From Pirellulaceae bacterium (GTDB lineage: Bacteria; Planctomycetota; Planctomycetia; Pirellulales; Thermoguttaceae), in the NCBI GenBank assembly GCA_012744395.1, contig JAAYCB010000088.1, positions 1-62,620 of the forward strand: a stretch of DNA of 62,620 nucleotides, written 5' to 3'. The notes below the pieces were generated by a model. That model was given only the letters and a program-made list of their open reading frames with translations. It had not been told where the DNA came from and did no database searches. How positions within the stretch are numbered: the stretch's first letter is position 1; each line of letters opens with the position of its first letter. This document shows, piece by piece, positions 1 to 60,449 of the stretch. Made by a program: the position numbers and the translations under genes.

Positions 1-1598
1 CCCACGTCGGCGGCGGCCAGCGAGGCGGCGTCGCTAAGCCCCTCGCCGACCATCGCCACCGGCCCCGTTTCCTGCTGAATCTGGTGGACCGCCGCCGCCT
101 TCTCGCCGGGCATCAGGCCCGTGCGGAGGTCGCCGATGCCGACTTCCTCGGCCACCGTCCGGGCGGCCGCCGGACTGTCGCCGGTCAGCAGCACGATCCG
201 TTCGATCTTCAACGCACCAAGCCCGGCGACGGCCGCCTTCGCCTCCGGGCGAACCGTATCCCGGACGGCCACCGCGCCCACCGCCTCCCGATCCCTCGCC
301 ACCAGCACCACGCCGTAGCCGGCGGCGGACAACCCGTCGACCTGCTGCCGCAGGGCCTCGGGCAAGGCGACCTGGCACAGCTCCATCAGTCGCGGGCTGC
401 CGACGCGGAGCCGCCGCCCGGCAACCATCGCCTCCACCCCGAGCCCCGCATGGGCCGCGAAACGTTTCGACTCGACAGGGTGAAACCCCTCGGCCGCCGC
501 GCGCTCGGCGATCAGCTTTCCGAGCGGATGATCGGAATGGCGCTCGACGGCGGCCGCCAGCCGCAAGACGTCGTTTTCGACATAGCCGCCGGCCGGCACG
601 ATTCGGGCGATCCGCGGCCGCCCCAGGGTCAGCGTGCCGGTCTTGCCGAATACCACCGACCGCAGCCCGCCGAGCGTCTCCAGCGCGGCTCCTTCCCTGG
701 CTAGCACGCCCTGCCGGGCCAGCCCGCCGATCACGGCGGCAATCGCCGTGGGAGCCGCCCGGACCAGCGCGCAAGGGCAGGCCACGACCAGGACCGCCAG
801 CGAGCGGAGGATTTCTCCGCTGATTGCGTAGCAGACGAGGGCAACCCCAAGCACGATCGGAACGAACCAGGTGGCATATCGGTCAGCCATCCGCTGCCTC
901 GGCGCCTTGTCCGACGCGGCGCGCTCGACCAGCCGGATGATCCGCTCCAGCCCGGTCGCCTGGCCGACACACTCCGCCTCTACCTCGATCGTCCCGTGGA
1001 GGTTGATCGTGCCGGCGAAGACCCGCGCGCCGATCGTCTTGTCAGCCGGCGACGATTCTCCGATGAGCGGGCTCTGGTCGACGGCCGAACTGCCCGCCAC
1101 CACCGCGCCGTCGACGGCAATCCGGTCGCCCGGCCGGACAATCACGATGTCCTTCGGCTCGATCTCGTCGATCGGCACGAACTGCTCGCGGTCGCCGGAG
1201 CGGACTCGGGCGGTTGCCGGCCGCAAGGCCACGAGCGCCTCGATCCCGCCGCGCGTCCTGTTGACGGCAGCCTGCACGAGGGCCTTCCCGATCAGCATCA
1301 CGAGGATCACCTCGGCGGCGACCAGATACATCTGCTCCGCGTCTCCGCCCCGGCTGCCCAGGTAGATCGCGCCAAGCACCGCCAGGCTGACGGCAAAATC
1401 GGCCGAGAGCCTTCCCTGAACCAGCCCGGCGGCAGCTGAATAGAAGACGGGCATGCCGCCCACCAGCGCGGCGAGCATGGCGAGGTCAAAACCGCAAACC
1501 ACCTCGGCCGCACCCGTCATGTAGACCAGCAGGGCCGCGCCCATGAGCACGGTCAGAACGCAACGCCGCTGCTGGGTGTCCTCCAGGAGGCGGAACAT
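1..1598 (-). CDS. P1B-type heavy-metal ATPase-like protein with altered catalytic motifs (3' end outside window)
   Basis: The start is ATG at 1598, with an in-frame stop just upstream (1611-1613); the frame runs off the left edge after about 532 residues. The fold is that of a copper/heavy-metal P1B ATPase: N-terminal membrane helices without an HMA metal-binding domain, the actuator loop LIGES (Glu181), the membrane metal site CPC (274-276), the HP motif (357-358) and TGD (about 472-474). Two motifs deviate. The phosphorylation motif reads FGKTGTLT, so the Asp that forms the aspartyl phosphate is Gly318. The hinge motif GDGxND reads GEGLSD (Glu519). Intact family members need that Asp for transport, so this protein is probably unable to pump in the normal way. 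It may be a pseudo-enzyme partner of another ATPase or a decaying gene; the frame is otherwise clean. Confidence 0.85.
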   Translation of the reverse strand, partial: MFRLLEDTQQRRCVLTVLMGAALLVYMTGAAEVVCGFDLAMLAALVGGMPVFYSAAAGLVQGRLSADFAVSLAVLGAIYLGSRGGDAEQMYLVAAEVILVMLIGKALVQAAVNRTRGGIEALVALRPATARVRSGDREQFVPIDEIEPKDIVIVRPGDRIAVDGAVVAGSSAVDQSPLIGESSPADKTIGARVFAGTINLHGTIEVEAECVGQATGLERIIRLVERAASDKAPRQRMADRYATWFVPIVLGVALVCYAISGEILRSLAVLVVACPCALVRAAPTAIAAVIGGLARQGVLAREGAALETLGGLRSVVFGKTGTLTLGRPRIARIVPAGGYVENDVLRLAAAVERHSDHPLGKLIAERAAAEGFHPVESKRFAAHAGLGVEAMVAGRRLRVGSPRLMELCQVALPEALRQQVDGLSAAGYGVVLVARDREAVGAVAVRDTVRPEAKAAVAGLGALKIERIVLLTGDSPAAARTVAEEVGIGDLRTGLMPGEKAAAVHQIQQETGPVAMVGEGLSDAASLAAADV

Positions 1599-1658: not shown

Positions 1659-1742
1659 GGTTCCCAAGCTCCCGCTTGGGAACTCTCCCGCTACTTGCAC
1701 CACCTTTTTCTTTCCTGGTTCCCAAGCTCCCGCTTGGGAACC
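1659..1742. repeat. Two copies of a palindromic dispersed repeat
   Basis: Positions 1659-1683 and 1717-1742 each hold an inverted repeat, GGTTCCCAAGCTCC followed by CGCTTGGGAACC, able to form a stem with a minimal loop. Further copies occur at 38093-38136, 60350-60370 and 60424-60449. All are intergenic. Apart from these copies, the gap 1599-1920 shows no gene. Confidence 0.85.
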
Positions 1743-36035: not shown

Positions 36036-36171
36036 AACACATCCGCGAGACATTCACAACCCGACGCGTCAGCGAGGCACTCACAACCCGACGCGTCAGC
36101 GAGACATTCACAACCCGACGCGTCAGCGAGACATTCACAACCCGACGCGTCAGCGAGACATTCACAACCCG
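36036..36171. repeat. 27-bp tandem repeat array
   Basis: Four near-perfect units start at 36063, 36090, 36117 and 36144, each beginning GACGCGTCAGCGAG and ending TTCACAACCC, preceded by one degenerate unit from about 36036. There are no spacers. Because 27 is a multiple of three, the array is open in several frames on both strands without being a gene. Confidence 0.95.
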
Positions 36172-38092: not shown

Positions 38093-38136
38093 GGTTCCCA
38101 CTTGTAACCTGGTTCCCAAGCGCCAGCTTGGGGACC
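38093..38136. repeat. Palindromic dispersed repeat (one full, one partial copy)
   Basis: A partial copy (GGTTCCCACTTGTAACC) is followed by a full copy at 38111-38136, GGTTCCCAAGCGCC then AGCTTGGGGACC. It is the same family as at 1659-1742. Confidence 0.8.
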
Positions 38137-60349: not shown

Positions 60350-60449
60350 GGTTCCCAAGCTCCAGGAACCCCGGCTACCCCCCGACCGTATGGCCCCCGC
60401 GGCGATTTGAGCCAATTGCCCCTGGTTGCCAAGCTCCAGCTTGGGAACC
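60350..60449. repeat. Two copies of the palindromic dispersed repeat
   Basis: A shortened copy at 60350-60370 (GGTTCCCAAGCTCC then AGGAACC) and a full copy at 60424-60449 (GGTTGCCAAGCTCC then AGCTTGGGAACC). They lie between the hicB-like gene and the first GspF-like gene. Confidence 0.85.

Follow-up and report, generated by a model that had tools for sequence, protein, structure and literature searches.

Cages of SPFH-domain proteins (HflK/C, prohibitins, flotillins) are found everywhere, and it is debated what lies inside them or is organised by them. In E. coli, a cage built of 24 alternating HflK and HflC subunits surrounds FtsH and reaches into the periplasm (PMC12048511). In P-type ATPases the Asp that becomes phosphorylated is described as invariant, and without it neither a phosphoenzyme nor coupled transport is possible (PMC9433437). 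Here we describe a planctomycete locus at which the two kinds of protein come together: a P1B-type ATPase gene that lacks this Asp and that, in a sister species, continues in the same frame into an HflK-like protein. The stretch of DNA analysed (62,620 nucleotides; hereafter the window) is the entire contig JAAYCB010000088.1 of a 6.17-Mb, 551-contig planctomycete assembly (a MAG).

The ATPase frame starts with an ATG at position 1598 and is open for 532 codons up to the contig end. In a profile search the truncated protein scored 423 bits against TIGR01525 (heavy-metal P-type ATPase; cut-off 346; E=1.9e-126). With this cut-off passed and with CPC and HP present, the protein is, by its sequence, a P1B-type ATPase by descent. 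It has in common with the P1B-ATPases CopA and ZntA (TIGR01525; 3j08, 7r0g, 4umv) the core of membrane segments, A domain and P and N domains together with CPC, HP and TGD. In contrast to them, it has neither the Asp of DKTGT nor the Thr of TGES nor an N-terminal metal-binding domain, and the copy in the sister species is fused to HflK. In relatives the ATPase has HQxxS close to its end, a motif that we matched to no numbered P1B subclass.

The original prediction described an intact frame with CPC, HP and TGD in place, a GKTGT with the Gly codon GGC at 645-647, and a GEGLSD, and all of this was confirmed. CPC lies within ACPCAL, HP (residues 357-358, in the N domain) within SDHP and TGD at residues 472-474, whereas DKTGT reads GKTGT and GDGxND reads GEGLSD (Table 1). 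The prediction missed a third altered motif, TGES, which reads IGES; both in the window and in the sister species the GE of (T/S)GE is retained and the Thr is gone. The phosphorylated Asp, the Mg-binding motif GDGxND and (T/S)GE, by all three of which a functional P-type ATPase is recognised, are thus not intact in the window protein, and no acidic residue lies beside G318. Leu280, which is invariant among the aligned fused relatives, is Arg in the window copy. Because the Asp is needed for the phosphoenzyme, the GKTGT protein should carry out no ATP-driven transport; the part of the original prediction that proposed a pseudo-ATPase, on the ground that the Asp is essential for transport, stands, and no aspartyl-phosphate can form.

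Table 1. Features of the locus and repeats, in positions of the window.
Feature	Position	Strand	Remark
P1B-type ATPase gene, 5' 532 codons	3..1598	(-)	gene cut by contig end
GGC = Gly318, replaces phosphorylated Asp of DKTGT (GAC in L045)	645..647	(-)	common to L037
ATC = Ile179 (T179I), replaces Thr of (T/S)GE dephosphorylation motif	1062..1064	(-)	common to L037
GAG = Glu519 (D519E), replaces first Asp of GDGxND	42..44	(-)	window's species only
AGC = Ser522 (N522S), replaces Asn of GDGxND	33..35	(-)	window's species only
CPC metal-site motif in TM4, residues 274-276	771..779	(-)	intact
L280R, just after CPC in TM4	759..761	(-)	
E108V, near-invariant site	1275..1277	(-)	window's species only
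26-bp near-palindrome GGTTCCCAAGC(G/T)GGAGCTTGGGAACC	1659-1684, 1717-1742, 38111-38136, 60424-60449		four places; 0 in shuffles
Tandem array, 27-bp unit, 4.7 copies	36045-36171		96% match

Two copies of the 26-bp palindrome lie just upstream of the ATPase start (1659..1742) and are not thought to be part of its function. Units of it also occur in the same intergenic gap, beside the ATPase gene, of the sister species, and the genus probably carries the element as a dispersed repeat family.

The genus is sampled by two genomes. The other one examined, MAG Bin_67, belongs to the sister species and carries the gene on contig JAMOAF010000798.1 (locus L037). Its ATPase is 86% identical to that of the window over 532 residues and has the identical GGC codon, changing Asp to Gly, and the same IGES, yet its GDGVND is intact. 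Since the GGC is common to both species, Gly318 is not a read error and is older than the species split. In a tree of 62 P1B-ATPases the window and L037 proteins are paired (100/100), followed by L045 and then by L046 and L011/L047. Given this pairing, and given that the nearest outgroup L045 (62% identical to the window) has DKTGT, the tree places the Asp-to-Gly and Thr-to-Ile changes on the stem of the genus, and D519E, N522S, E108V and L280R later, in the window's lineage. Whether orthologues conserve the Gly, a point raised by the original prediction, therefore has a divided answer: the sister species has it, but all relatives outside the genus have DKTGT. Orthologues with an intact DKTGT had been named as evidence against the prediction; they exist in all relatives outside the genus, but what they do is date the change to the genus ancestor, and they do not make it an artefact.

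Naturally Asp-less P1B-ATPases are rare. The Asp of DKTGT is lost in 0 of the 60 other P1B homologues in the analysed set and in 0 of 23 fused relatives. The FGKTGTLT pattern, searched for in 392 genomes of the phylum, matched the window alone, and a pattern with Gly, Ala or Val at the Asp site gave two further matches among 296 genomes of the order, neither of them an ATPase. The window protein breaks 5 of 34 near-invariant sites, four of them catalytic; the sister protein breaks 2 of 34, and most of the 60 others none. We also noted a very divergent P-type ATPase (L051:4857-8144), on an end branch of 3.8, that keeps the Asp and is altered at 7 of 37 near-invariant sites, the P of CPC among them.

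In the sister species, the ATPase makes up approximately the first 620 residues of a single 959-aa frame, the remainder of which is a Band_7/SPFH domain matching hflK (TIGR01933; E=5e-38, 131 bits, below the cut-off of 159.4). The gene after the fusion is hflC (TIGR01932; 174 bits, above the cut-off of 134), and after it comes a second hflK gene (162 bits, above the 159.4 cut-off of TIGR01933). The fused half, its neighbour and the gene after that thus resemble hflK, hflC and hflK, the HflK/HflC (SPFH3) components of the FtsH complex. Where E. coli HflK has a short cytosolic N-terminus, the fusion has an ATPase, and its SPFH half scores below the hflK cut-off. We noticed no FtsH gene beside the fusion cluster.

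Three further genera of this family (L045, L046, L047) share the order fusion-HflC-HflK, and a genus from a different family (L048) has the fusion with no recognised HflC/HflK neighbours. A search with the SPFH half gave matches in 40 of 397 genomes of the class at E<=1e-60, most of them in open frames longer than 1000 aa. Of the 20 regions fetched, 19 (L177-L195) carry the ATPase-HflK fusion, all with DKTGT, and in most of them HflC and HflK come next; with L045, L046, L047 and L048 added, the fused relatives that have DKTGT number 23. In the tree, the fused ATPases group as a single clade (support 98/92). Judged from these loci, the cluster of fusion, HflC and HflK recurs across the class, and in the literature searched we found no description of a P1B-ATPase/HflK fusion or of its cluster.

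The fusion is thus seen in the sister species and in 23 relatives; for the window's species the assembly holds only the ATPase part, the contig stopping at residue 532, and searches of the window's own genome assembly gave no match to the SPFH half or to the HflC ortholog and HflK gene of the cluster. The SPFH half of the sister protein is without about 40 residues that are present in most relatives. Within the family the distribution of the fused cluster is patchy. One genus (G407, contig C1198, L049:3505-4818) has a remnant of the fused gene in which residues 1-97 are joined in another frame to residues 373-531, followed by SPFH-like pieces, so that residues ~98-372 are missing; it has the appearance of a pseudogene, or else of a misassembly.

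In P1B-ATPases the chain terminates on the cytosolic side, past M6. The hydrophobic segments of the sister protein are like those of P1B-ATPases; after them come five Arg residues (RRRRR), a hydrophobic HflK helix at ~648-666 and then the SPFH domain. Because the ATPase C-terminus is cytosolic and the HflK helix follows it, the SPFH half of the fusion should sit in the periplasm, which is the normal HflK orientation. This half matches the E. coli HflK structures 7vhp/7wi3.

The window's own genome also contains the same four components as separate genes. On contig C159 (L050:2872-8810), HflK (with a membrane extension), HflC, HflK and a P1B-ATPase follow one another. Here, in contrast to the fusion cluster, the ATPase stands as a gene of its own, the last, and belongs to a separate clade, and its DKTGT is intact while CPC is changed to CPG. 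This four-gene arrangement is common in the window's order; its ATPases often have CPG or CPS for CPC, with DKTGT intact in those read, and form their own clade (100/99) apart from the fused one. The ATPases of the separate clusters, which keep the phosphorylation Asp and have lost a metal-binding Cys, are odd in their own right. In one genus (g5; L128-L135), the separate SPFH-linked ATPases read PGES for TGES, and DKTGT is kept where seen.

The reading that we favour, at about even odds, is that the genus ancestor lost phosphorylation, that the protein lived on as the membrane scaffold of an HflK/C-like cage, and that it is now decaying in the window's species. An incipient pseudogene is a serious possibility too, though short of an even chance: the cluster would have become useless in the genus, the Asp would have been lost first and other catalytic residues next, and the frame would still be open for lack of time. 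Replacement and silent changes, polarised with L045 and resting on two tips and this one outgroup, to which silent sites are fairly saturated, number 44 and 20 in the window lineage, compared with 22 and 27 in the sister lineage (p=0.013) and with 36 and 35 in the window's own neighbour gene (p=0.037). The window's omega of about 0.9 (bootstrap 0.44-3.3) is near neutral, which favours decay, as do its five broken near-invariant sites, the patchy occurrence of the fused cluster and the frame-changed remnant in G407. The same holds for the genus stem, on which the ATPase evolved about twice as fast as on the L045 branch (ratio 2.0, 1.6-2.6). The corresponding ratios are 2.4 for HflK2, 1.7 for HflC and 1.3 for the fused SPFH half (0.9-2.0; not clearly fast); with the SPFH half about 40 residues short and HflK2 accelerated, the whole cluster, and not the pump alone, may be relaxing. 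Nor does the open frame speak against a pseudogene: zero stops were seen in 39% of neutral simulations, and we rejected the lack of stops as evidence of function. The sister's GKTGT protein, however, is under what appears to be ordinary constraint (22/27 against 27/35 in the neighbour gene, p=1; omega about 0.25), with 959 open codons and with hflC and hflK intact. In addition, no indel separates the two species over the 532 ATPase codons, whereas the adjacent intergenic DNA has several. The two ATPases differ at 151 nucleotides and 77 amino acids, and neutral simulations that took their mutation spectrum from four-fold sites predicted 111±5 amino-acid changes, the observed 77 being lower than in 2000/2000 runs. 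These comparisons indicate that the sister species retains a constrained GKTGT protein and that the window copy is close to neutral. Decay of the fusion locus appears, moreover, to be a real outcome in the family, because G407 holds only a remnant.

The original prediction proposed that the pseudo-ATPase acts as a metal sensor, a metal chaperone or a partner of an active paralogue, and we find such a regulatory role improbable. In its favour, CPC is retained, and the window's genome has other P1B-ATPases with an intact Asp (on C283 and C159). Against the proposal, an N-terminal metal-binding domain is absent, L280R just after CPC is unlikely to keep the metal site, and in relatives we recognised neither a regulator nor another ATPase next to the locus; HflC and HflK are the partners there, and the ATPase is itself fused to HflK. 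The sensor, chaperone and paralogue-partner roles find no support here, and the neighbourhood points in another direction. The original prediction also advised looking for a second, intact ATPase in the gene to the left; on that side the window stops, and relatives have hflC and hflK at that place. That the protein still pumps, with another residue standing in for the Asp, is very unlikely: HP, TGD and CPC do remain, but the Asp, described as invariant in P-type ATPases (PMC9433437), is kept in 60 of 60 homologues, and G318 has no acidic neighbour to replace it. The chance that the defect is a sequencing or assembly error is close to negligible. The gene sits right at a MAG contig end, a place more prone to error, but the GGC and IGES recur in the sister species, whose genome was assembled independently and which differs at 151 nucleotides over the stretch. 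Error is thus ruled out for Gly318 and Ile179, and the original view that the defect is genuine holds for these two; D519E and N522S, present in the window's species only, rest on one assembly.

If the protein was indeed kept as a scaffold after phosphorylation was lost, the window would hold the N-terminal half of a P1B-ATPase-HflK fusion belonging to the planctomycete fusion-HflC-HflK cluster, in most members of which the pump, judged by motif, would be active. The cytosolic C-terminus of the ATPase would lead directly into the HflK membrane helix and so place the SPFH domain in the periplasm. By homology to E. coli HflK/C, this domain may join HflC and HflK in building a cage or cap whose rim holds the membrane bundles of the pump; the simplest model would be an HflK/C-type cage in which ATPases replace the short HflK N-terminus. 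In the genus ancestor, Asp-to-Gly and the Thr-to-Ile change of TGES would have abolished phosphorylation and, by established P-type chemistry, ATP-driven transport with it. The dead-pump protein would then have been retained, most likely as a membrane-embedded anchor of the HflK subunit. The sister copy would still be constrained, and the ATPase half in the window's species would be drifting almost freely, possibly heading for loss.

More tentatively, and with less than even confidence, we suggest that Planctomycetia may possess a widespread, apparently undescribed machine that combines a P1B pump and an HflK/C-type SPFH cage in one polypeptide and exports into or at the cage rim, and that the window's genus keeps a dead-pump version of it for the cage. 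If this is true, the genus separates the scaffold role of the machine from its transport role. An ion pump covalently joined to an HflK-type subunit, if conserved in this form across a bacterial class, would indicate a defined client and topology, and a natural, catalytically dead member would provide a built-in control for asking which role is under selection, transport or scaffolding.
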